From Pengzhenrongella frigida (lineage in GTDB: Bacteria > Actinomycetota > Actinomycetes > Actinomycetales > Cellulomonadaceae), in the NCBI RefSeq assembly GCF_004168625.1, contig NZ_SDWW01000033.1:1-53958 (forward strand): DNA of 53,958 bases, written 5' to 3'. Shown piece by piece: positions 20,513 to 53,079 of the stretch. The position numbers were made by a program, and so were the translations under genes. The notes below the pieces were generated by a model, which saw only the letters and a list, made by a program, of their open reading frames with translations, had not been told where the DNA came from and did not search any database. Numbering within the stretch: position 1 is the stretch's first letter; the number at the start of each line of letters is the position of its first letter.

Positions 20513-20586
20513 CGCGGGGTGGAGCAGCTCGGTAGCTCGCTGGGCTCATAACCCAGAGGTCGTAGGTTCAAATCCTACCCCCGCTA
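20513..20586 (+). tRNA. initiator tRNA-fMet (CAT)
   Basis: A full cloverleaf: acceptor CGCGGGG (20513-20519) with CCCCGCT (20579-20585), D-stem GAGC/GCTC, anticodon stem CTGGG/CCCAG around loop CTCATAA (anticodon CAT at 20547-20549), T-stem GTAGG/CCTAC with loop TTCAAAT. The first acceptor pair is a C-T mismatch and the anticodon stem has three G-C pairs, both marks of the initiator. CCA is not encoded. The gene is the attachment site of the element to its right; everything from 20543 on is element-supplied or shared repeat. Confidence 0.97.
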
Positions 20587-20635
20587 CTTATGAAAGTGCA
20601 GGTCAGAGGCCCTTTCTCCCTTCGGGGAGGGAGGG
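20543..20635 (+). repeat. attL, left direct repeat
   Basis: Starts in the anticodon stem of tRNA-fMet and runs through the T-arm, the acceptor 3' strand and the downstream hairpin (CCCTTTCTCCC / GGGAGGGAGGG). It differs from the right copy at 20606, 20622 and 20631. After it the sequence reads TCTCTTATG, so the tRNA's terminator here lacks the T6 run present at the right copy. Confidence 0.93.
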
Positions 20636-21037
20636 TCTCTTATGTTCGATGTACGCATTTCATCAGCACGGAGCCTCGGGTCCCGGTAGGTCCGTGGGCA
20701 TGACTACTGGGTTTTCCGTGGGTTTTGGGCCCGGACCACCGATGTGGTGCTGATCATTTGGTGCGCGACACGTCGGAAAGCCGGAGCGCTGATGTACGCA
20801 GTATGTACGCAGTTGCTCACGGCGGACCTTTCCGGCCACCCCACGACTCGCACGCCAGCCGAGCGCGACGATGATTCACGGTGTCAAAGTCATCGACCTA
20901 CGACGCCAGTACGGCCAGAGACTGGCTAGGGCTGAATCCAGGACGGCCCTGGGTAGACAGCACCGGCCAACGCCTGCGGGGGCGCTAGCTCAGGTCCAGG
21001 CTCCGTTGCTCTGACCCGGTGTCATCAGGCAGGGACG
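20636..21037. other. left end of the element, no convincing gene
   Basis: It contains three TGTACGCA octamers (separate entry). A 35-codon frame from GTG 20881 to TAG 20988 reads VSKSSTYDASTARDWLGLN at its start; its protein-like look suggests a remnant or a very small gene, but I cannot name it and no ribosome site is evident. An excisionase was looked for and not recognised. Confidence 0.5.
20650..20811. repeat. candidate left integrase arm sites (TGTACGCA x3)
   Basis: TGTACGCA occurs at 20650-20657, 20793-20800 and 20804-20811, the last two spaced 11 bp start to start. The 24-bp block around the doublet (20789-20812) matches 21 of 24 bases of the block at 52847-52870 near the other end. 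Confidence 0.6.
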
Positions 21038-23212
21038 TCATGCCTCGATGGCACGCAGGTGCAGCACCAGCGCCTGAGCCGGCCACAACGGTGGGATCTG
21101 TACGCCCACTTCGGAAAGCATGCTCCCGGTGAGCAGGACGCCGGCCCCGGACATCCATTGCGGTGAGGCCAGACCCTGACGGCACACGCTCGCCTCCTCA
21201 CGCACGCTCAGACGGTAGCGGGTGCGGGGGTCGAGGCCGTCGAGCCGCACGCGCTCCGGCACCGCGTCTTCCAATGCTGCAACTGTCGCGATGCTGAAGA
21301 GGGCTTCGGAGCCATCGGGCAGAACGAAGCCGGTCACGCGCAGTGCGGGATCGACCACTTCCGGGTGAACCACCACGCCGTTGCAGATCACGTGGCGCAC
21401 CTCCTTGTAGAGCTGCGACCAGCGGGCAATCGCCTCAAGCTCGTCGTCGGTGCACTCGAGAAGGTTCCATTCGAAACCGGCCGAGCCCATCAGGCTCGTT
21501 GCCATGCGGTAGGCGAGGGTGGTGTGACGGCCTGAGCTGTGGGCCTCCGCGGGCCCGACATGGCCGCCGACCAGCTCCGGAGGCAGCAGCAGCTGGGTCC
21601 AGCGCTGAATGTCCTGACGCTCGACAGGGTCGTTGGAGTCGCTGGCCCAGACCCGGTCGGTTCGCGAAATGATGCCGAGGTCGGTGCGGGCACCACCGCT
21701 CGAGCATGACTCGACCTCGAGCCCCGGATGCGCTGCCTTCAATTCATCGATGAGGCGGTAGGCGGCCAGCGTCTGAAGGTGACCGCCCGGGCGGCCGTCG
21801 TGCACCGCATCGACGAGGTCGCGGTTGTGGTCCCACTTGATGAAGTCGATGCCGAGCTCGCTGATGAGGGCGTCGATCTGGCCGAAGACGTGGGCGAAGG
21901 CGCCAGGATTCGCTAGGTCGAGCACGTACTGGTGGCGCCACGACAGACCAGGGGGAGGCGTCAGCGCATCGGGAGCGTGCAGCAGCCAGTCGGGGTGCGC
22001 GCGGGCCAGGTCGGAGTCGAGGCTCACCATCTCGGGCTCGAACCACAGGCCAAACTCGAGCCCGAGGCCGTGCACGTGATCGGCGAGCGGACCGAGACCG
22101 TCACGCCACACCTCCGTGTCGACGACCCAGTCGCCGAGCCCGGTGGTGTCGTCGCGCCGGGAATGGAACCAGCCGTCGTCGAGCACGAACCGCTCCACGC
22201 CGACGCGCGCCCCGACCTCCGCGAGGCGGAACAGCGCCTCCTGGTCGTGGTCGAAGTAGACCGCCTCCCAGGTGTTCAGCACGAGCGGACGAGGAGAGGC
22301 AGGATGCTGGGGCCTGGACCGCAGATAGTTGTGGAAGCGCGCGGACAGGCCGTCGTGTCCCCGCGATGACCAGGCGAAGTAGCTCACCGGCGTGACGTAG
22401 CGCTCGCCCTGCGTGAGCCGGATCTCGCCCGCACGCAGCAGCTCACCGGCGCCGATGAGCGTGACGGCGTCGGGCATCCGATCGACGCGGTAGCTTGTGT
22501 CGCCGCTCCAGCCCAGGTGCACGGCCCAAGAGCGCCCGTTGCGATTCCGGGGGATGCCCTCAGATGCGAGGAAGAGGTTGGTCGCGTCATGACCGCTCCT
22601 GCCTCGCCGTGTCTGACGAACCGTCGCGCCGCGGGGCATGTTCGTCGTGTGCGGTGCCTTCTCCCTGGTCCACCGCCCGGAGAACGAGGTCAGGTGGTCG
22701 GCGGACTTCGGCACCGGCAGGACGGCCTCGAGCCAATCGACATCGAGAACTCCGCTGGCGGAGTTCTCGAGCGTCGACGTGAGGGCGACCAGACCGCCTT
22801 GCTCGATGGCCAGCTCGAGTCGCAGGGTCAGCCCGTTGCGCGCGTCCTCAAGCTCAAGCGCGAGCTGCGGCGACGACGACGCGTCGCCGCCCGTGACCCG
22901 CACGGTCGTCCAGTGCGGAAAGACCTGTAAGCCGTCGCGCCGGGCTGACAGAGCAGGCCGGCCGGCCCAGCCGTCTGACTCTTGAGGAACCAGCGGTATC
23001 TGCAACGCCGATTCGGCGGTCTGAGGCGGCGTGACGCGGCTCTGCGCGGCGGAGAGGTCGGCCAGCAGCCCGTCGTCGAGCGGCCCCAGATCCTCGCCCC
23101 AGTGCAGCACCGAGGCGGGCGAATCCTGTTTGTGCTCCAGAACGAGCATGACGCGATCCCGGCTCAGCACACTGAACCGGCGCAATGGCGCGGCGGGGGA
23201 AACGGGCGACAT
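21038..23212 (-). CDS. GH36 alpha-galactosidase
   Basis: 724 residues, normal for bacterial GH36. Order of parts: N-terminal beta-sandwich, catalytic barrel, C-terminal sheet. The catalytic nucleophile is the Asp in FIKWDHNRD near residue 460 and the acid/base the second Asp of VWASDSNDPVERQDIQ near 524. LDDGWF and WFEPEMV are the substrate-pocket strands. It removes terminal alpha-galactose from raffinose-type sugars, galactomannan oligomers or galactinol. No signal peptide, so it acts on imported sugars. A good ribosome site (AAGGA) precedes ATG 23210-23212. It follows the ROK gene by 44 bp on the same strand, so the two are likely one transcript. Confidence 0.93.
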   Translation of the reverse strand: MSPVSPAAPLRRFSVLSRDRVMLVLEHKQDSPASVLHWGEDLGPLDDGLLADLSAAQSRVTPPQTAESALQIPLVPQESDGWAGRPALSARRDGLQVFPHWTTVRVTGGDASSSPQLALELEDARNGLTLRLELAIEQGGLVALTSTLENSASGVLDVDWLEAVLPVPKSADHLTSFSGRWTREKAPHTTNMPRGATVRQTRRGRSGHDATNLFLASEGIPRNRNGRSWAVHLGWSGDTSYRVDRMPDAVTLIGAGELLRAGEIRLTQGERYVTPVSYFAWSSRGHDGLSARFHNYLRSRPQHPASPRPLVLNTWEAVYFDHDQEALFRLAEVGARVGVERFVLDDGWFHSRRDDTTGLGDWVVDTEVWRDGLGPLADHVHGLGLEFGLWFEPEMVSLDSDLARAHPDWLLHAPDALTPPPGLSWRHQYVLDLANPGAFAHVFGQIDALISELGIDFIKWDHNRDLVDAVHDGRPGGHLQTLAAYRLIDELKAAHPGLEVESCSSGGARTDLGIISRTDRVWASDSNDPVERQDIQRWTQLLLPPELVGGHVGPAEAHSSGRHTTLAYRMATSLMGSAGFEWNLLECTDDELEAIARWSQLYKEVRHVICNGVVVHPEVVDPALRVTGFVLPDGSEALFSIATVAALEDAVPERVRLDGLDPRTRYRLSVREEASVCRQGLASPQWMSGAGVLLTGSMLSEVGVQIPPLWPAQALVLHLRAIEA

Positions 23213-23256
23213 GGGATCCTTCCGATCGGCGGGCCAGCATGCGGCCGCGGCCTGGG

Positions 23257-24468
23257 TCAGTCGATAACGAGGACGCTTGCGTGCGGTGCGAGGAAGTGAT
23301 CGATCACCAGATCGGCGGCGCCCTGTGCGGCGATCAGCTCACCCACGGTGGAGGCCACGACCGAGAATGCCTCGCGTGAGACGACGAGCTCGCGGCGCAC
23401 TGCATCCTCGAGTACGGGAAGGAAGGCGGCGCTAAGGCGGTTCCAGGTGGGGCCGCCCAGCACGACGCGGGGGACGTCGAGGAAGTTGACGAGCACGCCG
23501 ATGCCGACGGCGACCCGGCGCGCGGCGCGATCCAGGATGAACGAGGCCTTGGCGTCCCCACCCGCCGCTAGCTCGGTGAGCGTCGTGAATGCGTCGTCGG
23601 TCGCCAGGTAGTCGGTCAGGTCAGGCAGCACCATCAGGCCGGCCTGCACCGCCTGGATGACGAGCGCCTCGGGGACGCACGCTGCGGCGAGTCCGCCGCG
23701 CCGGCCGCTCCAGTGAAGGTCCTCGGCCGTGGGATCGACCAGGATGTCGCCGATCTCGCCGATGTTGTTGCTGGCACCGCGGAGCACCTGGCCCTGGGTG
23801 ACGACGGACGCACCTACGCCGGAGCCGAGATAGAGGAACAGGAAGTCGGAGTCAGCCGATTTGCGTAGTTCCGCGGTGGCGGATGCGGTGACATCCTTGT
23901 CGAGCAGGACCGGCAACCCGGTGGCGTCGTGGAGGTCTGCGCGAAGTCGCACGTCGCGCCACTTGGGCAGCTGGGGTGGGTCGAGCACCACACCGGTGCG
24001 TACGTCGAGCGGGCCTGGCACGGCGATCCCGACTCCCAGCAGCCGGTCACGGTCGATGCCGGCCTCGCGAACCAGACGACCGATGCTCACCGCGATGAGG
24101 GCCGTCATCTCGCCGGGGTTGGTCGCTTGCGGTGTGCGCAGATGCAGACGGTGGCGCACCTCACCGGCGATGTCGAGCAGCAGGATCGTGAGGTGGGCGG
24201 GGTCGATGTGCACGCCGACGGCGAAGCCGCCGCCTCCGTTGACCACCAGGGGGATGCTAGGGCGCCCTCGAACCGCGTCGCCCGGCTCGCTCTCGCGGAT
24301 CATCTCGGCGTCGATGAGACGCCGAGCGATGTTGGAGATGGTCTGTGACGCGAGGCCGGACCTTCGCTGCAAGTCCGCCCGGCTTGTGCCGGGTTTCCGG
24401 CGAATCAGGTCGAGGATGACCGCCTGGTTGTAGTTGCCCAGGCTCAGCAGGTTGCTGCCTCGGAGCAT
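23257..24468 (-). CDS. ROK-family transcriptional repressor
   Basis: 403 residues. An N-terminal winged helix (SRADLQRRSGLASQTISN near 27-44) precedes a ROK sugar-kinase-like domain with VGIAVPGPLDVRTGVV and NNIGEIGDILVD. The Cys-rich zinc motif usual in ROK proteins is replaced by HWSGRRGGLAAACVPEA, so the zinc site is lost. It probably senses a sugar from the neighbouring glycan operon and represses it. ATG 24466-24468 follows GGGGGGTGAC. It is divergent from the binding-protein gene across a region with two similar operator-like sites, and is probably cotranscribed with the alpha-galactosidase. Confidence 0.88.
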   Translation of the reverse strand: MLRGSNLLSLGNYNQAVILDLIRRKPGTSRADLQRRSGLASQTISNIARRLIDAEMIRESEPGDAVRGRPSIPLVVNGGGGFAVGVHIDPAHLTILLLDIAGEVRHRLHLRTPQATNPGEMTALIAVSIGRLVREAGIDRDRLLGVGIAVPGPLDVRTGVVLDPPQLPKWRDVRLRADLHDATGLPVLLDKDVTASATAELRKSADSDFLFLYLGSGVGASVVTQGQVLRGASNNIGEIGDILVDPTAEDLHWSGRRGGLAAACVPEALVIQAVQAGLMVLPDLTDYLATDDAFTTLTELAAGGDAKASFILDRAARRVAVGIGVLVNFLDVPRVVLGGPTWNRLSAAFLPVLEDAVRRELVVSREAFSVVASTVGELIAAQGAADLVIDHFLAPHASVLVID

Positions 24469-24526
24469 GTCACCCCCCACGATCGGACGATCCGGTGCGC
24501 TGACCGCACTCGGACACGTGGTTAAT

Positions 24527-24538
24527 CCTATCGAATGG
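24527..24538 (-). promoter_or_regulatory. operator-like site near the ROK gene
   Basis: CCTATCGAATGG shares the ATCGAAT core and flanks with the site at 24670-24682. On the minus strand it overlaps TAGGAT, a plausible -10 of the ROK gene, 59 bp before its start, so binding would be autoregulatory. Confidence 0.5.
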
Positions 24539-24624
24539 AATGGCTTCCGCGTGGTCGGTGAGACCACCTCGGTTCGGTGAGCCGCGGTGGACGTACGCAG
24601 CCACGTGCGGCCATCGGGCAAGGT

Positions 24625-24682
24625 TTGACAGGTCGCTCCTCCTGACCTAACGTCTGGACCACGCTTTATCCCATCGAATAGG
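24625..24682 (+). promoter_or_regulatory. promoter and operator of the ABC/glycosidase operon
   Basis: TTGACA (24625-24630) and TAACGT (24648-24653) have ideal 17-bp spacing. CCCATCGAATAGG (24670-24682) lies about 10 nt past the expected start of transcription and 40 nt before the binding-protein start. A repressor there would block elongation or promoter escape. The ROK protein is the obvious candidate. Confidence 0.7.
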
Positions 24683-24722
24683 CAAAGTGGCCCAGGGGAG
24701 CGAAGCGGAGAGAGGCACCGCA

Positions 24723-26063
24723 ATGAAGCGCACTCGAGCGAGAGCCGCACTTGCCGCCACCTTGGTCGTGGCCGGCGGGCTCACTGCCTGTTCCACTGCC
24801 AGCAGCACCACCGACGGCACCGTCACGATCTCCATCGTGGAGTTCCAGAAGTCCCGCATCGACTCCATCAAGAAAGTTCTCCCCGGCTTCGAGGCGGAGA
24901 TGAAGAAGCAGGGGAAGGACATCAAGGTCACTCTCGTGGCCGACGTCCTCACCGACGACCAGTTCAAGACCAAGCTCACCCAACAGCTCATTGCGGGGGA
25001 GGCGCCCGACGTCATCGACATGGGTGACAGCCTCGTTCCCGGCTTCGCCGGCGCCGGCTACCTGACCCCGCTCGACGACTACCTCAACGAGTGGGACGGC
25101 TGGGACCACTACTTCCCGCAGTTCAAGGAGGCGATGGTCCGCCAGGACGGGCACATCTACGCCCTCGTGCACGACACGCAGGTGCAGAACCTCTTCTACC
25201 GCAAGGACATCCTCACGGAGCTCGGCGTCGACACCAGCCAGCCGGATACCTGGGAGGACCTGATCGCTCGCCTCGTCACCCTCAAGGAGAAGACGGGCGG
25301 CACGCCGATCGTGGTCCCGGCCGGTAGCGCCTGGGGCGGAAGCACCTGGACCGAAGGGTTCCTCCCCATCCTCGGCGGCACCGATACGGACTTCTACAGC
25401 CTCGAGACAGGCAAGTGGGATCTGGAGAGCGACGGCTGGGCCGCCGTCTTCGACCTGTACGGCGAGCTCTATGCCAAGGACCTCCTCCCGGTCCAGGACC
25501 TGGAGAACCCCAACCCGTGGGAGCCGACCAAATACGTCAAGTTCCCGGCGGGCGAGATCCAGGTCGCCGCGCAGGGCACCTCGGGCTGGAAGTTCGACTG
25601 GGGCACCAACGGTGCCGCGCCCATCCCCGAACTTGAGACCAAAGTCGACACCTGGCAGTACCCGGCGCTCCAAAGTGGTGACAAGCCGTTCGGCTGGAGC
25701 GGCCTCGGCTCCAGCTTTGCCATCCCGGAGAAGTCGCAGCACAAGGACGAGGCGATGCTCCTTGCTCAGTACCTCTCGAGCGGTGAACCGCTCGCCGAAC
25801 AGCTCGTCACCTCCGGAGCTGCTTCCCCCCGCGACGACCTCGCTGACGTGAAGCCCTACGCGGACGAGCCAAAGCTCCTGCAGGCGGGAGAGGACCTGGC
25901 GACCAGCGTCTACGTGCCAACCGGAGACGGTTCCGAGCAGATCGCGCAGGCGGTCGCGTCTGCCACCGAACTCATCATCTCTGGTGAGGCAGACGGCGCC
26001 CAGGCGTATGCCGCGTTCGTTGAGGACGCGACCGACCTGCTCGGCCCGAACCTGGTCAAGTAG
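24723..26063 (+). CDS. ABC transporter sugar-binding lipoprotein
   Basis: 446 residues with a type II signal peptide: positive N-terminus KRTRAR, hydrophobic core LAATLVVAGG, lipobox LTACS with Cys near residue 23. The rest is a family-1 extracellular solute-binding protein (DDQFKTKLTQQLIAGEAPDV; FYRKDIL; TWEDL). It captures an oligosaccharide at the cell surface for the next two gene products. ATG 24723 follows GAGAGAGG and gives the signal peptide directly. It is the first gene of the operon and its stop overlaps the next start by one base. The substrate is unknown; the glycosidases downstream point to galactose- and mannose-containing oligosaccharides. Confidence 0.92.
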   Translation: MKRTRARAALAATLVVAGGLTACSTASSTTDGTVTISIVEFQKSRIDSIKKVLPGFEAEMKKQGKDIKVTLVADVLTDDQFKTKLTQQLIAGEAPDVIDMGDSLVPGFAGAGYLTPLDDYLNEWDGWDHYFPQFKEAMVRQDGHIYALVHDTQVQNLFYRKDILTELGVDTSQPDTWEDLIARLVTLKEKTGGTPIVVPAGSAWGGSTWTEGFLPILGGTDTDFYSLETGKWDLESDGWAAVFDLYGELYAKDLLPVQDLENPNPWEPTKYVKFPAGEIQVAAQGTSGWKFDWGTNGAAPIPELETKVDTWQYPALQSGDKPFGWSGLGSSFAIPEKSQHKDEAMLLAQYLSSGEPLAEQLVTSGAASPRDDLADVKPYADEPKLLQAGEDLATSVYVPTGDGSEQIAQAVASATELIISGEADGAQAYAAFVEDATDLLGPNLVK

Positions 26064-27004
26064 TGTCCTCGGTCACCGAGATGCCCGTTTCGGCAGCGGC
26101 GGCAACGCGGCCGCTGCCGAAACGGCGCGGCCGATCCAACAACCGGCCGCTGCTCCTGCTCCTGCTCGGCCCGGCCGCCGTGCTGATCGTGCTGTTCATC
26201 GTCGGTCCGGCGTTGTACGGCATGTACCTCAGCTTCACCAACACCCAGCTCACCGGGTTCGCCGCCCGCGACCCGAAGTTCGTCGGTCTCGACAATTACG
26301 TCTACCTGCTGAACAACGCGGACTTCCTCGGCTCGCTCGGGCACACCGGCGAGTTCGTGCTCTACTCCGCGATCATCGGTCAGACCGTTCTCGGGATGCT
26401 TGCGGCGATCCTGCTCAGCCGGCCCTGGATGCGCGGCAAGGGAATCATCGGCGCTGCCGTCCTCATGCCGATGATCGTGCCCGAGGTGGTCGCCTCGCTG
26501 ACGTGGGCGAGCGTGCTGTCCAACAACTCCTCCGGCACTCTGAACCAGCTGACAGGGATCTTCGGTGTTCCACCGACGGCCTGGCTCCAGGTGGTGCCGA
26601 TGGCTTCGATCATCGTGGTCAACATCTGGCGCGGCATCGCCTTCGCCATGATCATGTTCCAGGCCGCCCTCGAGGACGTCCCGGTCGAGCTTATCGAGGC
26701 GGCCAGGATCGACGGAGCCCGTGCCATGCAGGTGTTCCGGCACGTCACGCTCCCCCTTATCCGTGGCCCGGTGTTCCTCTATCTCCTGCTGACCACGATC
26801 AGCACGGTCGGCGCCTTCGGGCTCGTCTACTTCCTCACCCAGGGAGGCCCCGGCGGTCAGACCCAGCTGGCGGCGATCTACATCTACGAACGTGCGTTGC
26901 AGTTTTCTCAGGTCGGAATCGGAAGCGCCGCTTCGATGATCCTCCTGGTCATCGTGCTGGTGCTGGGCTCGGTCTACCTACGGCTCGCGAAAGTGGAGGT
27001 GTGA
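26063..27004 (+). CDS. ABC sugar permease, MalF/UgpA-like
   Basis: 313 residues, about six membrane segments (first: LLLLLLGPAAVLIVLFIV near 30-47). The EAA loop that docks the ATPase is EAARIDGARAMQVFRHVTLP near 210-230. GTG 26063 overlaps the preceding stop. It pairs with the next permease. No ATPase gene is in the operon; actinobacterial carbohydrate importers commonly share a multipurpose MsiK-type ATPase encoded elsewhere. Confidence 0.92.
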   Translation: MSSVTEMPVSAAAATRPLPKRRGRSNNRPLLLLLLGPAAVLIVLFIVGPALYGMYLSFTNTQLTGFAARDPKFVGLDNYVYLLNNADFLGSLGHTGEFVLYSAIIGQTVLGMLAAILLSRPWMRGKGIIGAAVLMPMIVPEVVASLTWASVLSNNSSGTLNQLTGIFGVPPTAWLQVVPMASIIVVNIWRGIAFAMIMFQAALEDVPVELIEAARIDGARAMQVFRHVTLPLIRGPVFLYLLLTTISTVGAFGLVYFLTQGGPGGQTQLAAIYIYERALQFSQVGIGSAASMILLVIVLVLGSVYLRLAKVEV

Positions 27005-27005: not shown

Positions 27006-27899
27006 ATGACGACCCTGGCCAACCGTGCTGCCTCGCCGCAGACAGCTGCTCCCGTTCGCCACACGCGGCGACGTCGCCTCACTGCGATCGATCTCGTGCA
27101 GCGGGTGCTGGGCTACACGCTCATCGTCATGCTGGCGCTCTTCTGCCTCGTACCCTTCGCGTGGGTGGTGCTGAGCGCCGTCGATGCGAATGCCGGGCCG
27201 AACGTGCAGTGGCCGACGGTCTCGATCGAGAACTTCGTGAACTTCTTCACGAACTCCGGTACCCCGCTGCTGCTGCTCAACAGCCTGATCATCGGGATCG
27301 GTGCGACGGCACTCAACCTCGTGCTCGGGCTCGCGGGCGGATATGCGCTCGCCCGCTTCCAGTTCCCCGGTCGCCGCATGTTCATGTTCAGCATTCTGCT
27401 GATCAGGGTGATCCCCGCGCCGGCCACGATCGTGGCGCTTTACCTGATCCTCGTGAAGCTGAACCTCACGAACTCACTGTGGGGGCTCATTCTCGTCGAA
27501 GCGGTGCTCCAGCTGCCGGTGACTCTCTGGTTGCTCAAGGGGACGATCTCGGCCGTGCCGATCGAGCTGGAGGAAGCAGCCTGGGTCGACGGCAGCTCTC
27601 GCTTCCAGGCGATCTGGCGGATCGTGCTGCCCCTCGCCGGACCTGGGCTCGGCGCCGCGGCGATGCTGACGTTCCTGGGCGTGTGGGGCGACTTCCTCAC
27701 CCCCCTCGTGATGCTGCAGCGCCAGGAGCTCTACCCACTGTCGATCGGGCTCTTCCGCGCCTTCAGCGAGCACAACCAGGTCGACTGGGGCCTCCTCGCC
27801 GCCAGCGCGATCGTCTACGTGGCGCCGCCGGCCGTGCTGTACGTCTTCGTGCGCAAGCACCTGCTCCACTCCAGCCTCGGCGGCGCCATCAAGGGCTGA
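27006..27899 (+). CDS. ABC sugar permease, MalG/UgpE-like
   Basis: 297 residues with about six membrane segments (first: YTLIVMLALFCLVPFAWVV near 37-55). The EAA loop is EEAAWVDGSSRFQAIWRIVL near 191-210. The start ATG 27006 follows GGAGGTG, one base after the preceding stop. It forms the membrane channel with the upstream permease. Confidence 0.92.
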   Translation: MTTLANRAASPQTAAPVRHTRRRRLTAIDLVQRVLGYTLIVMLALFCLVPFAWVVLSAVDANAGPNVQWPTVSIENFVNFFTNSGTPLLLLNSLIIGIGATALNLVLGLAGGYALARFQFPGRRMFMFSILLIRVIPAPATIVALYLILVKLNLTNSLWGLILVEAVLQLPVTLWLLKGTISAVPIELEEAAWVDGSSRFQAIWRIVLPLAGPGLGAAAMLTFLGVWGDFLTPLVMLQRQELYPLSIGLFRAFSEHNQVDWGLLAASAIVYVAPPAVLYVFVRKHLLHSSLGGAIKG

Positions 27900-38783: not shown

Positions 38784-38828
38784 CCTGGTTTCCACGACCA
38801 CCCCTGCACTGCCCCCAGGAGGACCACC

Positions 38829-40185: not shown

Positions 40186-40206
40186 TGTTAGGACAAAGAT
40201 TTGACG
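40186..40206 (+). promoter_or_regulatory. iolC promoter, 10-mer plus -35
   Basis: TGTTAGGACA (40186-40195), a 5-nt gap AAGAT, then TTGACG (40201-40206). The -10 is not clear. The layout is the same as at three other promoters in the locus. The 305-bp gap to the GntR gene has no other recognised element; the leader to iolC is about 100 nt. Confidence 0.65.
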
Positions 40207-40339
40207 TTGGGCTTGGTTGTAGTGCAGAGTCCTCCGTGAGGCAATGGTGAGGCGCAGATCGAGCCGATCAGCGCGAACCACCATCGCCCCGCTCGCCCAG
40301 CCGGGCGATCCCCAACGACGAGGAAAACCAGGAGACGCT

Positions 40340-45004: not shown

Positions 45005-45036
45005 CCGATTCGACCTGAGCAGAAGGACAACTAGCG

Positions 45037-46581
45037 ATGACGATCACGCAAGAAGCACCCACCCCCGCCACCGGCACGGCGCCGACCGCGACGGTCAAGC
45101 ACTGGATCAACGGCCAGGAGACCGCGGGCGCGACGGGCCTGACCCAGCCGATCTACAACCCGTCGACCGGCGAGGTATCCGGGCACGTCGCCCTCGGCGA
45201 CGCCGGCACAGTGGCCGAGGCGGTGGCCGCCGCCCAGGCCGCGCAGAAGACCTGGGGCCGGATGTCGCTCGCGAAGCGCACCACGATCCTGTTCAAGATG
45301 CGCGAACTCATGCTCACCCACGACCTCGAGCTCGGGCAGATCATCTCCGCCGAGCACGGCAAGACCGTCGAAGACGCCCGCGGCGAGATCGCCCGCGGCC
45401 GCGAGACGATGGAGTTCGTCTGCGGCATCAACCAGGCCTCCAAGAGCGAGTTCAGCTCGGACGCCTCGACCGGCGTGGACGTGCACACCCTGCGCCAGCC
45501 GCTCGGCGTCGTTGCCGGCATCACCCCGTTCAACTTCCCGGCCATGGTGCCGCTGTGGATGCACCCGGTCGCCATCGCCGCCGGCAACGCATTCATCCTC
45601 AAGCCGTCCGAGCGTGACCCGTCCGCGTCGATCTTCGTCGCCAAGCTGTACCAGGAGGCCGGCCTGCCCGACGGCGTCTTCAACGTCGTCCAGGGCGGCA
45701 AGGTGGCCGTGGACGCGATCCTCGAGAACGACGGCATCGCGGCGGTGTCCTTCGTCGGCTCCACCCCGATCGCGAAGTACGTGCAGCAGAAGGCCATCGC
45801 GAACGGCAAGCGCGCCCAGGCTCTGGGCGGGGCGAACAACCACGCCATCGTCATGCCCGACGCGAACATCACCTTCGCTGCCTCCCAGATCTCCTCCGGG
45901 GCCTTCGGCTCCGCCGGCGAGCGCTGCATGGCCCTGCCGGTCGCCGTCGTCGTCGGTGACGCCGCCGAGCCGCTGATCGCCGCTCTCAAGCTCGAGGCCG
46001 AGAAGCTCAAGGTCGGCCCCGGCAACGCGGCCGACACCGACATGGGCCCGGTCATCACCCCGGCCTCCCGCCAGCGCGTGCTGGACTTCACCACCGAGGC
46101 GATCGACGCCGGCGCGCGGGCGATCGTCGACGGCCGCGACCTCGTCGTCGAGGGCTTCGAGAACGGGTTCTACGTCGGCCCGACCATCCTCGACAACGTC
46201 ACCACCGACCTGCGCGCCTACTGCGACGAGGTCTTCGGGCCCCTCCTGGTCGTCATGCGGGTCGACACGTACGAGCAGGCCATCGAGCTGGTCAACTCCT
46301 CGCCGTTCGGCAACGGCGCGGCGATCTTCACCAGCTCGGGCGAGGTCGCGCGCGCGTTCTCGGTCGACGTCGAGGCAGGCATGGTCGGCATCAACGTCCC
46401 GATCCCGGTCCCCGTCGGCTACTTCTCCTTCGGCGGCTGGAAGGACTCGCTGTTCGGCGACCACCACGCCCACGGCCCCGAGGGCTTCCGGTTCTACACC
46501 AAGGCCAAGGTCGTCACGACCCGCTGGCCCCACCAAGCCACGGCCGCTGCCGCGAGCATGAGCTTCCCCGGCAACGACTGA
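45037..46581 (+). CDS. iolA: CoA-acylating (methyl)malonate-semialdehyde dehydrogenase IolA
   Basis: 514 residues of the aldehyde dehydrogenase superfamily, MMSDH branch. NAD site GITPFNFPAMVPLWM near 162-176, VGSTPIAKYV, and the catalytic Cys in GSAGERCMALPV near 296. The family converts malonate semialdehyde to acetyl-CoA and CO2, or methylmalonate semialdehyde to propionyl-CoA. ATG 45037 follows AGAAGGAC. Last gene of the operon, followed by a terminator hairpin. Confidence 0.94.
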   Translation: MTITQEAPTPATGTAPTATVKHWINGQETAGATGLTQPIYNPSTGEVSGHVALGDAGTVAEAVAAAQAAQKTWGRMSLAKRTTILFKMRELMLTHDLELGQIISAEHGKTVEDARGEIARGRETMEFVCGINQASKSEFSSDASTGVDVHTLRQPLGVVAGITPFNFPAMVPLWMHPVAIAAGNAFILKPSERDPSASIFVAKLYQEAGLPDGVFNVVQGGKVAVDAILENDGIAAVSFVGSTPIAKYVQQKAIANGKRAQALGGANNHAIVMPDANITFAASQISSGAFGSAGERCMALPVAVVVGDAAEPLIAALKLEAEKLKVGPGNAADTDMGPVITPASRQRVLDFTTEAIDAGARAIVDGRDLVVEGFENGFYVGPTILDNVTTDLRAYCDEVFGPLLVVMRVDTYEQAIELVNSSPFGNGAAIFTSSGEVARAFSVDVEAGMVGINVPIPVPVGYFSFGGWKDSLFGDHHAHGPEGFRFYTKAKVVTTRWPHQATAAAASMSFPGND

Positions 46582-46606
46582 GTCCCGCAGCAAAACCAGG
46601 TGCGTG

Positions 46607-46640
46607 AAAGCCGGCGAGACCTCACCGTCCCGCCGGCTTT
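46607..46640 (+). terminator. terminator of the iolC-iolA operon
   Basis: A perfect 10-bp stem AAAGCCGGCG (46607-46616) / CGCCGGCTTT (46631-46640) with a 14-nt loop, 26 nt after the iolA stop. It ends in TTT. Confidence 0.8.
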
Positions 46641-46697
46641 GGCGCGCCCGGCGCGCGGCTGGTGTGCAACTCACGGTGCGTGGCAAATTAGTCAGAA

Positions 46698-46750
46698 TGA
46701 CAGGACAAAGAGTTGACAGGTCACATCATTCTGAGTTGAATGTAAGGACA
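46698..46750 (+). promoter_or_regulatory. transporter promoter with two 10-mer sites
   Basis: TGACAGGACA (46698-46707), 5-nt gap AAGAG, TTGACA (46713-46718), 17-bp spacer, TTGAAT (46736-46741), then a second 10-mer TGTAAGGACA (46741-46750) near the expected start of transcription. The first site has the same spacing as at three other promoters. The leader to the ATG is about 130 nt. Confidence 0.7.
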
Positions 46751-46886
46751 AACACGTGCGGGCGAGGCTGCCGGTGTGGCGCGGATCTCTCAGAGACGAG
46801 AATGCGGGTCTACGCGTTCGAGCAGCCGCCATGCGCACGCCGCTGCCGGGTCCGGTCACGACCGCCCGGCCATGGAAAGGACGCCA

Positions 46887-48386
46887 ATGACGGCGATCAG
46901 TGATCAGGTGGGGGCAACCTCCGGAACCGGGCAACAAGTCTCGCCCGCCGAGCTCGACGCGTTCTTCGAGACGGGCAAGCCCCTCAAGCCGCACTCCATG
47001 AAGGCGATCGCCCTGGTCGCGACACTTGGCGGGCTTCTGTTCGGCTACGACACCGGCGTGATCGCCGGCGCGCTGCCGTTCATGACCGACACTGCCGCCA
47101 ACGGCGGGCTGGGCCTGAGTCCGCTGACGGAGGGGCTCGTCACCTCCTCGCTCCTGTTCGGTGCGGCCTTCGGTGCGCTGTACGGCGGGCGGCTCTCGGA
47201 CCGGTTCGGGCGCCGGCACAACCTCCTGCTGCTCGCCGGGGTGTTCTTCGTCGGTGCCATCGGCACGGCGCTCGCTCCGTCGGTCGCCGTCATGGTGGCC
47301 GCCCGGATCGTCCTCGGGCTCGCGGTGGGTGGCGCCTCGGCCACGGTCCCCGTGTACCTCGCCGAGATCGCGCCGAAGGAGCTGCGCGGCCGGCTCGTCG
47401 CCGTCGACCAGCTCATGATCGTCTCGGGCCAGCTGCTCGCCTACTCGATCAACGCGGTCCTGGCGAACGTATGGGACGGCCACTCCACCTGGCGCTGGAT
47501 GCTCTTCCTGTGCTCGATCCCCGCGATCGCGCTGTGGATCGGCATGCACCGGATGCCTGAGACCGCCCGCTGGTTCGCGTGCAAGTTCCGCTTCGGCGAG
47601 GCCGCCGAGGTGCTGCGGAGCACGCGACGCCCGGGCTACGACCTCAAGGGCGAGCTGTCCGAGATGCTCAACGTCGCGCAGGAGTCCAACGCGAAGCGCG
47701 AGGGTGGTTGGGCGGACCTCAGGACCCCGTGGATCAAGCGCCTCGTGATCATCGGCGTCGGCATCGCCGTGCTGCAGCAACTCACGGGCGTCAACACGCT
47801 GATGTACTACGCGCCGACCATCCTCACCGAGACCGGACTCGGCACCAATGCCGCGCTCACCGCGACGATCGCCAACGGCGTGGTCTCGGTCATCGCTGCG
47901 GTCGCCGGGCTGTGGCTCGTGGGTCGCGTCCGCCGCCGCAACCTGTTGATCGTCGGTCAGATCGGCATCATCGCGTCGCTCGCCGCCATCGCGACCACGT
48001 TCGGGCTCCTCGTCCAGCCGAGCCTCGAGGCCGGCACCACCCCGCCGGCGTCGAGCTCCTACACCGTGCTCGCCTTCATGCTCTGCTTCCTGATCTTCCA
48101 GCAGGGCGCCGTCTCGCCGGTGACCTGGGTGATGCTGTCGGAGATCTTCCCGATGAAGATGCGCGGCTTCGGCATGGGCCTGGCGGTGTTCCTCATGTGG
48201 ATCGCCAACGCCATCATCACGTTCAGCTTTCCGCTGCTCATCAGCACCTTCGGGGGCACCGGGACGTTCCTGGTGTTCGCCGTGGTCAACGTGGGCACCG
48301 TCATCTTCAGCTGGCGGATGGTGCCCGAGACCTCGCACCTGACGCTCGAGGAGCTCGAGGAGGAGTTCCGCGACAGCAGCGTCTGA
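46887..48386 (+). CDS. MFS sugar-porter, probable myo-inositol:H+ symporter
   Basis: 499 residues, twelve membrane segments. Sugar-porter signatures: GGLLFGYDTGVIAGALPF near 48-65, GRLSDRFGRRHNLLL near 97-111, PETARW near 224, QQLTGVNTLMYYAPTI near 296-311, and a C-terminal PETSHLTLEELEEEF. The position in the inositol locus and the shared promoter motif make inositol the likely substrate (IolT role), though the family also carries xylose and glucose. ATG 46887 follows AAGGA; upstream in-frame starts lack a ribosome site. Confidence 0.88.
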   Translation: MTAISDQVGATSGTGQQVSPAELDAFFETGKPLKPHSMKAIALVATLGGLLFGYDTGVIAGALPFMTDTAANGGLGLSPLTEGLVTSSLLFGAAFGALYGGRLSDRFGRRHNLLLLAGVFFVGAIGTALAPSVAVMVAARIVLGLAVGGASATVPVYLAEIAPKELRGRLVAVDQLMIVSGQLLAYSINAVLANVWDGHSTWRWMLFLCSIPAIALWIGMHRMPETARWFACKFRFGEAAEVLRSTRRPGYDLKGELSEMLNVAQESNAKREGGWADLRTPWIKRLVIIGVGIAVLQQLTGVNTLMYYAPTILTETGLGTNAALTATIANGVVSVIAAVAGLWLVGRVRRRNLLIVGQIGIIASLAAIATTFGLLVQPSLEAGTTPPASSSYTVLAFMLCFLIFQQGAVSPVTWVMLSEIFPMKMRGFGMGLAVFLMWIANAIITFSFPLLISTFGGTGTFLVFAVVNVGTVIFSWRMVPETSHLTLEELEEEFRDSSV

Positions 48387-48394
48387 CCGCGCGA

Positions 48395-48436
48395 GGCCCG
48401 GACTCCGACGTCGATCAGGGCGTGGGCGTCCGGGCC
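48395..48436. terminator. hairpin between convergent transporter and LacI genes
   Basis: A 9-bp stem GGCCCGGAC (48395-48403) / GTCCGGGCC (48428-48436). The right arm lies inside the 3' end of the LacI gene, so it could stop the transporter transcript; there is no T-run. Confidence 0.45.
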
Positions 48437-49437
48437 TTGCGGGGACCGGGCCGCGGGGCCGTCGAGCCGCGCACGACGAGGTCGGGGTCGAGGCGCACGG
48501 TGCGCCCCGGCTCGCGGCCCTGCATCCGCTCGGTCAGCAGAGCGAAGGCCGTTCCGCCCGTGCGCGCCCTCGGCTGATCCACCGTTGTGAGGTCGAACTG
48601 CGGCATCGCGGCGAGCCGCGTGTTGTCGTACCCGACGACCGACATCTCGCCCGGGATGTCGATCCCGGCCCGGGAGAGCGCGCCCATCGCGGCGATGGCG
48701 GTGACGTCGTTGTGGGCGAGCAGGGCGGTGGGCCGGTGGGCGAGGGCCAGGATCAGCGCGGCGGAGTCGCCGTCGGCGGCCACGTCGGCGACGACCCGCG
48801 CGCCGAGCCCGGCCGCGTCCATGGCCGTGAGGTACCCCGCGCGCCGGTCCAGCAGGAGCGGCTCGGACACGCCGGCGGCGACGTCGAGGTACGCGATGTC
48901 GCGGTGGCCGAGCGCGAGCAGATGCTCCGTGGCGCGCCGCGCGCCGGCGGCCGAGTCGTTGTGCACGAAGTCGACCCCGACGGCGGGCACCGGGAAGCCG
49001 ACGACGACCGTCGGGACCTGCCGCCCGATCGCCGCGAGCGCCGCGCTCGCCTGCAGCGGCGAGACGATGACCAGACCGTCGACCCGCAGCTGCAGGAACA
49101 TCTCGACCGCGTGGGCCTCACGGGTGGGGTCGCGGCGGCCGTCGTTGAGCAGCGTCGTCAGCCCGGCAGCGGCGGCCGCGTCCTGGAGGTGCGCGGCGAC
49201 CTCGCTGAAGAACGGGTTGGCGACGTCTTGCAGCACGACGCCGACGAGCCCCGTGCGACGGCGAGCGAGGTTGGCGGCGGGCGCGTTGACGCGGTAGCCG
49301 ATGTCGAGGGAAGCCTGCAGGATCAGCTCCCGCGTGCTCTCGGCGACCTCGGGTCGTCCCGAAAGCGCCATCGACACGAGCGCGCGCGAGACCCCTGCAC
49401 GCGCGGCAACGTCCGCCTGGGTCGGGAGTCGCCGCAT
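48415..49437 (-). CDS. LacI-family transcriptional regulator
   Basis: 340 residues. The N-terminal LacI helix-turn-helix reads PTQADVAARAGVSRALVSMA near 5-24 with hinge APAANLARRR near 52-61, followed by a periplasmic-binding-like sensor (VVLQDVANPFFSEV; DFVHNDSAAGA; VVGYDNTRLAAMPQFDLTTV). It may control the divergent iolG operon and perhaps the transporter, alongside GntR. ATG 49435-49437 is chosen with AGGA 8 nt upstream. The effector is unknown. Confidence 0.88.
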   Translation of the reverse strand: MRRLPTQADVAARAGVSRALVSMALSGRPEVAESTRELILQASLDIGYRVNAPAANLARRRTGLVGVVLQDVANPFFSEVAAHLQDAAAAAGLTTLLNDGRRDPTREAHAVEMFLQLRVDGLVIVSPLQASAALAAIGRQVPTVVVGFPVPAVGVDFVHNDSAAGARRATEHLLALGHRDIAYLDVAAGVSEPLLLDRRAGYLTAMDAAGLGARVVADVAADGDSAALILALAHRPTALLAHNDVTAIAAMGALSRAGIDIPGEMSVVGYDNTRLAAMPQFDLTTVDQPRARTGGTAFALLTERMQGREPGRTVRLDPDLVVRGSTAPRPGPRKARTPTP

Positions 49438-49503
49438 GGGCAAATCCTAGGTCGACGCGGCCGGAGGCCGGTGTCGACACGCGAATCGGCGGCATTTGAG
49501 CGT

Positions 49504-49548
49504 ATGTCCGGACATGAATTTGACGCGCGTCAAGTTCCTCGGTAGACA
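49504..49548 (+). promoter_or_regulatory. iolG promoter with palindromic 10-mer
   Basis: The palindrome ATGTCCGGACAT (49504-49515) contains TGTCCGGACA (49505-49514), then a 5-nt gap, TTGACG (49520-49525), a 17-bp spacer and TAGACA (49543-49548). The 10-mer to -35 spacing is identical to that at the transaldolase, iolC and transporter promoters. Confidence 0.7.
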
Positions 49549-49617
49549 TAGGTCCAGGTTCTCCGGCGATCGCCGAGGAGCTTCGCGCGACCTTCAAGGA
49601 AGAGGGGTACCTCGCCC

Positions 49618-50637
49618 ATGGTCAACATCGCCATCATCGGGGCAGGACGCATCGGTGCCGTGCATGCAGCAACCGTCGCCTCGCACCCAGGTGCTCGGCT
49701 CGTGCTCGTCGCCGACCCGTTCGGCGAGAACGCCGCGACCGTGGCCGCGAGGTACGGTGCGCGCTCCACCACCCAGGTCGCTGAGGTCTTCGCTGCGCCA
49801 GACGTCGACGCCGTCATCATCGGCTCACCCACCGCGACCCATGTGGACCACATCATCTCCGCGGTCGGCGCCGGAAAGGCCGTGCTGTGCGAGAAGCCCG
49901 TCGACCTCAGCGTCGTGCGGGTCGACGAGTGCCTTGCCGCGATCGCCGGGCACGAGAGCTCGGTGATGATCGGCTTCAACCGCCGGTTCGACCCGACGTT
50001 CGCCGAGGTCCACGATCGCGTCCGGGACGGGGAGATCGGCGCGCTCGAGCAGCTCACCATCATCAGCCGCGACCCGGCGGCCCCGCCCGCGTCATACATC
50101 GCCGGATCCGGCGGGATCTTCCGCGACATGACGATCCACGACTTCGACACCGCGCGCTTCTTCCTCGGCGACATCGTCTCGGTCTCGGCAGTGGGCCAGC
50201 ACCTCGACGCCGCCATCGAACGCGCCGGCGACTTCGACGCCGCCGTCGTGACCCTGACCGCCGCGAGCGGCGCGGTCGCGACGATCATCAACTCCCGTCA
50301 CTGCGCGTCCGGGTACGACCAACGCCTCGAGGCGTTCGGCCCGCGCGGTGCGCTCGAGGCGGTCAACCACCTCGCGACGTCGGTGCGCTCCTCGGGCCGG
50401 GGCCAGTCCTCGGCCGCCGGGCCCTACCTGGACTTCTTCCTCGCGCGGTACGCCGAGGCGTACCAGCTCGAGCTGAGCCACTTCATCGACTGCGTGACCT
50501 CGGGGCTGGCGCCGTCGCCGTCGATCTTCGACGGCCGCGCCGCCCTGGTCCTCGCCGACGCGGCGACCCTCAGCGCGAGCATCGGAGAGCGGGTCGCCGT
50601 CACGACGGCACCCGAGCTGATCGCCACCGCTCGCTGA
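49618..50637 (+). CDS. iolG: myo-inositol 2-dehydrogenase IolG (Gfo/Idh/MocA family)
   Basis: 339 residues. Rossmann start NIAIIGAGRIGAVHA at 3-17, CEKPVDL near 91-97, and the active-site region GGIFRDMTIHDFDTARF near 163-179 with the conserved Asp and His of IolG. It oxidises myo-inositol to 2-keto-myo-inositol (scyllo-inosose) with NAD, the first step of the pathway. GFNRRFDPTFAEV and LEQLTIISRDP are typical of IolG rather than other family members. It forms an operon with the IolE-like gene 40 bp downstream. Confidence 0.9.
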   Translation: MVNIAIIGAGRIGAVHAATVASHPGARLVLVADPFGENAATVAARYGARSTTQVAEVFAAPDVDAVIIGSPTATHVDHIISAVGAGKAVLCEKPVDLSVVRVDECLAAIAGHESSVMIGFNRRFDPTFAEVHDRVRDGEIGALEQLTIISRDPAAPPASYIAGSGGIFRDMTIHDFDTARFFLGDIVSVSAVGQHLDAAIERAGDFDAAVVTLTAASGAVATIINSRHCASGYDQRLEAFGPRGALEAVNHLATSVRSSGRGQSSAAGPYLDFFLARYAEAYQLELSHFIDCVTSGLAPSPSIFDGRAALVLADAATLSASIGERVAVTTAPELIATAR

Positions 50638-50677
50638 ATACGCCAGATCCAACTCGACCGACGCAAGGAGACTTTCC

Positions 50678-51541
50678 GTGAAGATCGCTGGAGCCCCCAT
50701 CAGCTGGGGCGTGTGCGAGGTCCCCGGGTGGGGCTATCAGATGGCACCGTCGAGGGTGCTCGCCGAGATGACGGCCGTCGGGCTCGAGGCGACCGAGTTC
50801 GGTCCCCAGGGCTGGCTCCCGCCGGCGCCCGTTGAGCGCGCCGCGGCGCTTGAGCCGTACGGCCTCGCCGCCGTCGGGGCGTTCGTTCCCGTCGTGCTGC
50901 ACAACCCGGACCACGACCCGCTGCCCGCCGTCAGCTGCGAGTTGGACAGCTTCGAGGCGGCGGGCGGCGACGTGCTCGTGCTCGCCGCGAACTCAGGGCT
51001 CGCGGGGTACGACGAGCGTCCCGTGCTCGACGAGCAGGGGTGGGCCACGATGTTCGCCAACCTCGACCGCCTCGTCGACCTGGCCTCCTCCCGCGGCATC
51101 AAGGCCACCCTGCACCCGCACGTGGGCACCATGGTCGAGAAGCGCGACGAGGTGCTCCGCGTCCTGGCGGGCTCCAAGATCCCGCTGTGCCTCGATACCG
51201 GTCACCTGCTGATCGGCGGGACGGACCCGGTCGAGCTCGTGGCGACCTTCGCCGGTCGCATCAACCACGTGCACGCCAAGGACGTGCGCCTCGATCTTGC
51301 CAAGCGTGTCCAGGCGGGCGAGCTCACGTACACCGAGGCCGTCCGGGCCGGGATCTACGTCCCCCTCGGCGAGGGCGACGTCGACTTCGCTGCCATTGTG
51401 ACGTCGCTCGACGCCGCAGGCTTCGACGGCTGGTACGTCCTGGAGCAGGACACGATCCTGGCCGGCGAGCCCGCCGACGAAGGCCCGGTCAGGGATGTTC
51501 GCTCGTCGATCGCCTACTTGCGCGGCCTGAATCTGGCCTGA
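50678..51541 (+). CDS. TIM-barrel protein, IolE-like inosose dehydratase
   Basis: 287 residues of the AP-endonuclease-2-like sugar isomerase fold. IAGAPISWGVCEVPGWG at 3-19, LHPHVGTMVEKRDEV near 143-157, LCLDTGHLLIGGTDPVEL near 169-186 and INHVHAKDVR near 192-201 give the metal-binding Glu/His/Asp set. IolE dehydrates 2-keto-myo-inositol; it is the only step otherwise unassigned in this locus, and the HPHVGTMVE strand resembles IolE. IolI or IolH isomerases share the fold, so the assignment is by context as much as by motif. GTG 50678 follows AAGGAG. Confidence 0.78.
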   Translation: MKIAGAPISWGVCEVPGWGYQMAPSRVLAEMTAVGLEATEFGPQGWLPPAPVERAAALEPYGLAAVGAFVPVVLHNPDHDPLPAVSCELDSFEAAGGDVLVLAANSGLAGYDERPVLDEQGWATMFANLDRLVDLASSRGIKATLHPHVGTMVEKRDEVLRVLAGSKIPLCLDTGHLLIGGTDPVELVATFAGRINHVHAKDVRLDLAKRVQAGELTYTEAVRAGIYVPLGEGDVDFAAIVTSLDAAGFDGWYVLEQDTILAGEPADEGPVRDVRSSIAYLRGLNLA

Positions 51542-51704: not shown

Positions 51705-52829
51705 CTACGCGTCGCCCCGCCGGCGGATGATTTGGAAGGCGGCGAGGGCTTTGATGTCGGCGTCGGGCAGGGTGTGGAGGTATTTCTGGGTGGTCATGAT
51801 TTGGGCGTGGCCCATGCGTTCCATGACGGATTTGAGGTCGGCGCCGCCGGCGAGGAGCCAGGAGGCGTGGGCGTGGCGTAGGTCGTGCATGCGCACCGGG
51901 AAGTCGATGCCCGCTTTGGTGACGGCGGGCCGCCAGAACCGGGTGTTGAACGTCCCGCGAGACAGCGGCTGCCCGTGGGCGACCTCGCGGGAGGGGAACA
52001 GCAGGTCGTCGCGGCCCAGCCCGAGGGCGGCGATGCGGTCGGCGAGGGTGTCGAGCAGATCCTGAGAGACATGAAGTATTCGGGTCTGGTCGTTCTTGGG
52101 GTAGGGCTTGACGATCATGCGCTGGCCGGTGGGGGAGTCCTTCTTGGAGACCTCCACGATGGTCTCCTCGATGGTGATCGTCCCGCGGAGGAAGTCGATG
52201 TGTCGGGGTCGTAGTGCGACGAGCTCGCCCCAGCGCAGGCCGGTCTCGATGTCGGTGAGCAGCAGGGCATGGAAGCGGGCGGGCATGGCGGCCACGACGG
52301 ACTCGAACTCGGTCGGGGTCAGGATGCGGGTCTTCTTGAGCACGACCTTGGGTAGCTCGGTGTTCTCGCAGGGGTTGTAGGCGATCATCCGGTCGCGTGC
52401 CGCGCGGGCGAACACGGAGTGCAGCATCACGTGGTACTTCGCGATGGACCGGGGCGACAGGCCGTGCTCGAGGGCGTGGGTGACCCAGGCTTGGACGGTG
52501 GTGGGCAGTATCCGGGCCACGCGCATGTGCCCGAAGTAGGGCACGAAGTGGTTGCGCAGGTACGACTGGTACCCGGCGCGGGTGGTGACCTCGAGGTGCC
52601 GGGAGGGCAGCCAGACCTTCACCGCGTACTCCTCGAACGTGATGCGCCCAGCGGTGGGGTCGATCCAGGTTCCCTGCGCGACGGCGTCTTCCTGGCGGTC
52701 CGCGGCGCGGCCCGCCTCGCGCTCGGTGGCAAAGGTCCCGGCGGAGCGGGTGCGCCCGTACGGGTCGCGGAACATCGCGGTGTACCGGGTCTTGCCGTCG
52801 TCGGCTGTCCGCCGGATCACCCATCCCAC
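51705..52829 (-). CDS. tyrosine recombinase (integrase) of the element
   Basis: 374 residues: an arm-type DNA-binding N-terminus (RRTADDGKTRYTAMFRDPYG), SAM-like core-binding domain (about 70-165), then the catalytic domain with Arg in DIETGLRWGELV near 196, the HXXR box MHDLRHAHASWLL near 313, MGHAQIMTTQKYLH with the nucleophile Tyr near 348. All catalytic residues are present, so it may be active. GTG 52827-52829 with GGAGG upstream is chosen over longer frames. It lies 158 bp inside the right repeat and reads inward; two TGTACGCA sites sit just upstream of its start. Confidence 0.93.
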   Translation of the reverse strand: MGWVIRRTADDGKTRYTAMFRDPYGRTRSAGTFATEREAGRAADRQEDAVAQGTWIDPTAGRITFEEYAVKVWLPSRHLEVTTRAGYQSYLRNHFVPYFGHMRVARILPTTVQAWVTHALEHGLSPRSIAKYHVMLHSVFARAARDRMIAYNPCENTELPKVVLKKTRILTPTEFESVVAAMPARFHALLLTDIETGLRWGELVALRPRHIDFLRGTITIEETIVEVSKKDSPTGQRMIVKPYPKNDQTRILHVSQDLLDTLADRIAALGLGRDDLLFPSREVAHGQPLSRGTFNTRFWRPAVTKAGIDFPVRMHDLRHAHASWLLAGGADLKSVMERMGHAQIMTTQKYLHTLPDADIKALAAFQIIRRRGDA

Positions 52830-52850
52830 AGCGCCACCTCCGCGGGCTGA

Positions 52851-52869
52851 TGTACGCACAATGTACGCA
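52851..52869. repeat. candidate right integrase arm sites (TGTACGCA x2)
   Basis: TGTACGCA at 52851-52858 and 52862-52869, start to start 11 bp as in the left doublet. They lie 22-40 bp upstream of the integrase GTG, so binding could also repress the integrase gene. Confidence 0.6.
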
Positions 52870-52986
52870 GACGCACCTGGAAAGAGGTGGACCCGGGCGA
52901 ACCTCGACGGTTCAGAAGTGGCCTCTGACCTGCGTGTATGCTGCAACTCACGTTAGCAGGAGCGTGGCCGGATGCAACGTGGCCCC

Positions 52987-53079
52987 GGCTCATAACCCAG
53001 AGGTCGTAGGTTCAAATCCTACCCCCGCTACTTATGAAAGTGCAGGTCAAAGGCCCTTTCTCCCTCCGGGGAGGAAGGG
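52987..53079 (+). repeat. attR, right direct repeat
   Basis: A copy of the tRNA-fMet 3' part from the anticodon stem onward, with the downstream hairpin. It cannot form a tRNA because the acceptor 5' strand and D-arm are missing. The mismatches to the left copy are at 53050, 53066 and 53075. Confidence 0.93.

Follow-up and report, generated by a model that had tools for sequence, protein, structure and literature searches.

Which event has placed a block of sugar and inositol genes directly downstream of the initiator tRNA gene of Pengzhenrongella frigida, and does the chromosome resume where this block ends? The window in question is the whole of contig C53 (NZ_SDWW01000033.1, 53,958 bases) of a 4.3 Mb genome assembly with 126 contigs, and the block is bracketed by two copies of a direct repeat. 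We regard it as probable, at roughly 85%, that the bracketed DNA is an integrative genomic island at the initiator tRNA gene (island or element A) and that, of at least three elements stacked there, it is the one closest to the tRNA.

The repeat comprises 93 nt at 20543-20635 and 52987-53079, both on the plus strand and spaced 32,444 bp from start to start. The copies agree at 90 of 93 positions (97%) with the first mismatch at base 64, which confirms the bracketing repeat of the original prediction, identical through base 63. The left copy completes the tRNA as predicted: it consists of the 3' part of a tRNA-Met(CAT) gene at 20513-20587 (plus strand) and an element-type terminator, as judged from the repeat alignment and a comparison of terminators. 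ARAGORN and Rfam found this one tRNA (Rfam match 20513-20586, 63.5 bits), and the GGG:CCC anticodon stem together with the unpaired position 1, both read off the sequence, are features which we take to be hallmarks of an initiator. The 93-bp sequence is present in three copies in the own genome: besides the two of the window, contig C103 has one (86%). A 17-base pattern, searched with at most two mismatches, recovered these copies and one further site with two mismatches on contig C93. Among the repeat copies the 5' half of the tRNA is present only at 20513-20587; therefore, the assembly shows a single initiator gene, the only full-length one found in the genome. The right copy is indeed an orphan half-tRNA and adjoins a gene for a tyrosine integrase of 374 amino acids (aa; 51705-52829, minus strand; Pfam Phage_integrase, 9.9e-26). 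Its frame runs uninterrupted from a GTG at 52829 to 51705 and contains what we assume to be the catalytic residues; the enzyme thus still appears intact.

A short motif points to the same two ends. ATGTACGCA occurs five times in the window, exclusively on the plus strand (20649, 20792, 20803, 52850 and 52861), compared to an expectation of 0.025 per strand (order-1 Markov model, mean of 40 samples). All five copies are located just inside the repeats, on the left at the inner edge of the repeat and on the right upstream of the integrase gene. Arm-type sites would be expected there, and this shared position ties the two island ends together. They form a putative single site (20649-20657) and two putative pairs with copies 11 bp apart (20792-20811 and 52850-52869, all on the plus strand). 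Sister elements in related genomes carry other motifs at both ends, namely ATGTGGGC in G001, GTGACCGCA in G004, GTACGCA in G016 and TGCACGCA in Actinotalea lenta, again as pairs 11 bp apart; the design is weaker in G035 than in these four. The left end of island A (20649-20811) has its lone site beside the repeat and the pair about 140 bp deeper, and most sister elements have a single close pair. Together with the tRNA 3' repeat at the far boundary and the integrase at one end, the island differs in composition from the left flank (G+C 0.686 versus 0.741; 31 versus 20 windows of 1 kb; Mann-Whitney p=5.2e-7), which is the combination expected for a tRNA-associated genomic island. An assembly artefact or a simple duplication of the tRNA region with no integration event might be suspected in an assembly of so many contigs, in particular as the window reaches a contig end. 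We consider this extremely improbable: the private arm sites match at both ends, an integrase adjoins, the same architecture is found in the one-contig genome G004, and repeated units of integrase and attachment site (int-att units) are found in the one-contig genome G067. A chance repeat is ruled out by the arm sites, the integrase and the relatives.

The homologues of the integrase follow the same tRNA half. Relatives at E<=1e-100 were detected in 19 of 221 family genomes, and a half-tRNA lies at most 400 bp upstream of close homologues at 24 of 26 usable loci in one set (27 given) and at 13 of 14 in a second set (18 given), which overlaps with the first in organisms; for distant integrases the count is 0 of 25. 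The matching records from phages (1842) and plasmids (538) all remain below 60% identity, with best rows at about 30-33% and 27-31%, respectively. A plasmid origin was ruled out on these values. A prophage was also ruled out, since the 20 island open reading frames (ORFs) scanned with Pfam contain no phage families and thus neither phage structural nor replication genes. With regard to the mechanism, recombination by the tyrosine integrase at the anticodon-to-3' half of the initiator tRNA gene would have brought the island in, with strand exchange presumably in a core of about 45 bp, and the island may be excisable in turn. As the island would bring its own copy of the tRNA half and the terminator, the essential tRNA would stay whole.

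The second question concerns the right edge. The original prediction had treated 53079 as the edge of the chromosome and had proposed the junction of 20542 with the sequence after 53079 as the empty site, and neither proposal was borne out. The terminator of the right copy is of the element type (GTCAAAGGCC), and GTAAGCA comes next, at 53093 and 53104 and nowhere else in the window. This pair (53093-53110, plus strand) matches the one upstream of the integrase gene on C103, whose product is 78% identical to the island integrase, and probably represents the left arm sites of an element B. Behind the integrase gene with its two GTAAGCA sites, C103 contains a half-tRNA and then two copies of ATGTGGGC, the only such pair in the own genome at up to one mismatch. 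The DNA from 53080 onward therefore looks like the left end of element B, the proposed empty site would not be empty, and the right repeat would be the junction of A and B. Given the terminator type, the foreign arm sites and C103, a single island with a chromosomal right edge is unlikely. The simplest reading is probably the order tRNA, A, B and C, in which the three elements would have a common core site and differing arm-type sites, and A and B would each own a related integrase. Overall, of the original interpretation we retain an island integrated site-specifically into the initiator tRNA gene, its intact integrase and its catabolic cargo, and not the right copy as chromosome boundary. 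Past the third half-tRNA copy, C103 (L082) encodes a TIR-domain protein at 6899-8011, perhaps a defence gene of element C.

In six relatives the left flank is syntenic and the DNA to the right is different. At least two int-att units on a single contig were detected in G060, G062, G067, G074 and G137, and contigs C3, C4, C11 and C41 of G070 contain one tRNA and six orphan half-tRNAs. The terminators can serve as supporting evidence only: a GTCAGAGGCC-type terminator follows the tRNAs of G001, G004, G016, G035 and A. lenta, all with a bracketed island, a compact GGCCCGGACC...GGTCCGGGCC terminator follows the tRNA in G014, G027, G049 and G053, and the same compact kind is found on 8 of 21 right-hand copies. 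Most remaining genomes of this comparison have yet other terminators.

Several observations weigh against a stack with island A next to the tRNA. C53 and C103 are separate contigs, and we infer both their contiguity and the order A-B-C. Neither a circular form nor an empty site of the island was seen, and no excisionase was recognized among the 20 scanned ORFs. The GTCAGAGGCC-type terminator is also present in G002, G003 and G025, outside the group with a recognized bracketed island, and the family search found no close integrase in G002 and G003; hence, this terminator alone is no proof of occupation, or both genomes hold remnants. Half-tRNAs are missing at the close-integrase loci L123, L133 and L077, the first two of which have integrase matches that start well inside the protein. 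The Pfam arm-binding domain PF14657 matches the integrase weakly (E 0.16; 12.1 bits with a cut-off of 22.3), and we call its N-terminal domain arm-binding because of the position, the arm sites and the correlation between N-domain and arm described below. In G004 the same inositol genes are located downstream of the tRNA, 21 kb past the half-tRNA copy and outside the bracketed element, and this corresponds in part to the finding that the original prediction had named as contrary to an island, the same genes at this place without the repeat. On the chromosomal side, the genus yielded no clean empty site, and no chromosomal right flank emerged from tblastx between the right flanks of relatives, which gave only short weak matches. 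The downstream DNA of G004 yielded one 1.7-kb match on C49 of the own genome in the part compared, and no synteny was established.

The 20 scanned ORFs encode sugar and inositol functions, regulators, transporters and the integrase, which supports the catabolic cargo of the original prediction. The sugar genes, all assigned by Pfam, begin on the minus strand with a GH36 (alpha-galactosidase-type) glycosidase (21038-23212) and a ROK-family regulator (23257-24750) and continue on the plus strand with a solute-binding protein (24687-26063; longest ORF, start uncertain), two permeases of an ABC importer (26063-27004 and 27006-27899), a GH38 glycosidase (27966-30686; mannosylglycerate hydrolase model below cut-off), a GH2 beta-galactosidase-type glycosidase (30683-33799; below equivalog cut-offs) and a GH38 alpha-mannosidase-type glycosidase (33859-36933). 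GH38b was found in 97 of 297 genomes sampled from the order at E<=1e-250, with full-length matches of at most 56% identity, and these matches gave no clue to a donor. The inositol part starts with a transaldolase-like protein (37539-39047; Pfam, below all NCBIfam cut-offs) and a GntR/UTRA regulator (39285-40034; Pfam), both on the minus strand. The plus strand encodes IolC (40244-41326), a Cgl0159-like protein (41323-42192; Pfam, no NCBIfam match), IolB (42189-43094), IolD (43091-45004), the IolA/MmsA semialdehyde dehydrogenase (45037-46581; MmsA model), an MFS sugar porter (46776-48386; Pfam and NCBIfam) and, behind a LacI-family regulator on the minus strand (48415-49443; Pfam), IolG (49618-50637) and an IolE-type protein (50678-51541). 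At least three of iolB, iolC, iolD and iolE within 10 kb define an inositol cluster (PMC9430895), and B, C and D are present here above their NCBIfam cut-offs. IolG and MmsA also exceed theirs, and the pathway described as complete in the original prediction hinges on the acceptance of a divergent IolE-type protein, whose 166 bits fall short of the curated threshold (290 bits). For its counterparts in four further genomes of the family the scores are 151-170 bits, and for the one in G004 165. The Cgl0159-like gene is situated between iolC and iolB in the window and in the fetched inositol clusters of the family and is a candidate for the aldolase step. In the inositol clusters of G004, G070, G073, G144, G220, G221 and G223, too, a transaldolase-like gene adjoins the GntR gene, and iolG/iolE follow mmsA, as in the window, in G220, G221, G223, G144 and G230. 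As far as substrates can be deduced from these families, the cargo would enable the regulated import and degradation of galactosides, alpha-mannosides and myo-inositol.

How could such an element move? No relaxase or other transfer, replication or excisionase family was matched among the 20 scanned ORFs, the short gap ORFs being unsearched, and in this set island A lacks the transfer genes that characterize integrative and conjugative elements, their actinomycete relatives (AICEs) or integrative and mobilizable elements. Without a recognized transfer or excision-factor gene, element A would move only with help. It might also be what is left of a larger, conjugative or mobilizable element whose transfer genes were lost once it had integrated. 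This is plausible, as a TrwC relaxase (G001) or a relaxase and a coupling protein (G004) are encoded on sister elements whose integrases are related to that of A, although the odds lean somewhat against it, since no fragment of a transfer gene was found in the scanned ORFs, with gap sequences not searched for fragments. The sister elements were surveyed with composition-based gene picks (scanned ORFs: 20 of 29 called in the G001 island, 4 of 5 in A. lenta and 6 of 7 on C103; in G004, G035 and G016 only those of 180 aa or longer, with 28, 30 and 49 scanned, and 25 of 39 families in G035 and G016). Besides their transfer genes, the G001 element encodes a radical SAM protein, a sulfatase, an RND pump and transposases, and the G004 element helicases and a DNA methylase. 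The A. lenta element carries a DNA methylase and a ResIII-type protein, the islands of G035 and G016 much metal handling, and C103 a metal ATPase, ArsR and ChrB left of its integrase. The cargo of island A was not found in the fetched islands of G001, G016 and G035 or in the bracketed island of G004, apart from transporter and regulator family matches of about 30-35%.

The package is less unusual than originally claimed, as the cargo of sister elements at this tRNA is different and an IolD homologue is common in the order (113 of the 297 sampled genomes at E<=1e-200; outside the family at most 79% identical). Within the family, IolD was detected at E<=1e-150 in 16 of 221 genomes. Its distance to the tRNA is 91 kb in G004, 1.9 Mb in G144 and 2.5 Mb in G223; in G070 it is encoded on a contig with half-tRNAs, in 10 of the 15 genomes other than P. 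frigida it is on a different contig from the tRNA, and in the IolD-bearing G030 no full-length initiator match was found. These placements put inositol genes into the hotspot in at least three genomes, so that the histories of cargo and integrase need not coincide and may differ, and a joint arrival is presumed rather than read from the DNA. Consequently, the cargo, or at least the inositol block, could be an older resident of a variable zone downstream of the tRNA that was bracketed by later integrations and partial deletions, which would leave the tRNA integration itself unchanged. The inositol genes of G004 fit such a history, because they show 83-88% DNA identity to the window (core flank 80.6%) and their two blocks have changed places, as would result from a circular permutation (G004 C1 774643-788813 versus window 37542-51529). 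In G070 the inositol cluster likewise adjoins a half-tRNA with arm sites and has no intact close integrase directly beside it. We nevertheless find this scenario rather doubtful, since private arm sites of one kind mark the ends on both sides of the block in the window, and no inositol block is present in the islands of G001, G016 and G035 or in the bracketed island of G004. The G070 cluster is located left of the half-tRNA at C4 23028 with its GGTATGC arm sites, and right of the G004 cluster a sequence of 1.66 kb (C1 ~796953-798619) has 16 further copies of 88-94% and is probably a transposable element.

Beyond the assignment of A to a stack, the sister integrases suggest how elements with one core site could keep different arm sites. 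It is close to an even bet, slightly on the unfavorable side, that these enzymes are modular, in that the catalytic part keeps the tRNA core and the N-terminal, presumably arm-binding domain of about 60 residues is swapped together with the arm sites as a cassette. In 20 non-redundant integrases N-domain similarity tracks arm similarity given catalytic similarity (partial r 0.386; 5 of 5000 permutations), and the reverse comparison of catalytic part and arm fails (r -0.059; 2914 of 5000); the N-domain was taken as the first 56 residues, the register of the arms was chosen manually, and relatedness enters the permutation test through the covariate only. Eight integrases with GTGGGC arms form one N-domain clade (support 0.976) and are scattered over the catalytic tree. 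Between L118 and L110, 275 of 296 catalytic and 24 of 56 N-domain positions are identical, and the arm motif differs; L112 and L111 share 243 of 299 catalytic positions and differ in N-domain and arm motif, with a jump in DNA identity near codon 60, and identity steps up near this codon in both pairs. The coexisting elements of G074 with near-identical TGTGGGC arms speak against a cassette, as arms are not always private. We therefore treat the exchange of domain and arm as a lead, not as proof.

As far as the accessible text of the reports goes, several known systems resemble this locus. In Dehalococcoides, tandem islands with metabolic cargo are located downstream of ssrA, a single-copy essential RNA gene, and are marked by repeats of its 3' end; for islands that have no transfer genes, movement by accretion is considered there as a possibility (PMC3146451). 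Tandem metabolic islands at an essential RNA gene are common to both, whereas Dehalococcoides uses a serine recombinase and the tmRNA, and P. frigida a tyrosine integrase with arm sites and the initiator tRNA (PMC3146451). AICEs have tyrosine integrases at tRNA genes like island A, and tandem pairs at a Frankia tRNA-Lys gene were excised alone and together; one Frankia AICE resides in a tRNA-Met gene whose initiator status is unstated (PMC3218068). In contrast to island A, in which none of these was recognized, AICEs possess genes for transfer and replication and in most cases for an excisionase (PMC3218068). By analogy, island A appears to work like the tandem ssrA islands and the tandem Frankia AICEs. 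Integrases of Cluster K mycobacteriophages have, as the sister integrases here, the same attachment core and differing arm-type sequences; N-terminal substitutions were proposed to follow the arms, and the related Pixie and Tweety share the site and not the arms (PMC3203893). Those are small substitutions in phages, whereas here the N-terminal domain seems to be exchanged as a whole (PMC3203893). Actinobacterial inositol clusters encode the same enzymes as island A, with the core order C-B-D-E in 28% of positive Actinobacteria, and the inositol genes of Propionibacterium freudenreichii were called a genomic island though part of the core genome; unlike island A, the clusters are not described in the accessible text as lying between tRNA repeats with an integrase (PMC9430895, PMC4437456). 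No description of this initiator-tRNA island array was found in the literature searched, with most subscription journals outside the search.

The data point to a hotspot at the essential initiator tRNA in a family that probably includes Cellulomonas and Actinotalea, in which stacked islands carry catabolic, metal-handling, restriction-type and conjugation-type cargo. Such arrays are a natural set for studying how elements share one attachment site, and the AICE survey had asked, in its accessible text, whether a shared site limits multiple elements (PMC3218068). If arm sites and arm-binding domains are indeed exchanged as a cassette, stacked islands would possess private addresses and each could be excised alone, and the question of attachment-site sharing would become testable with few reporters.

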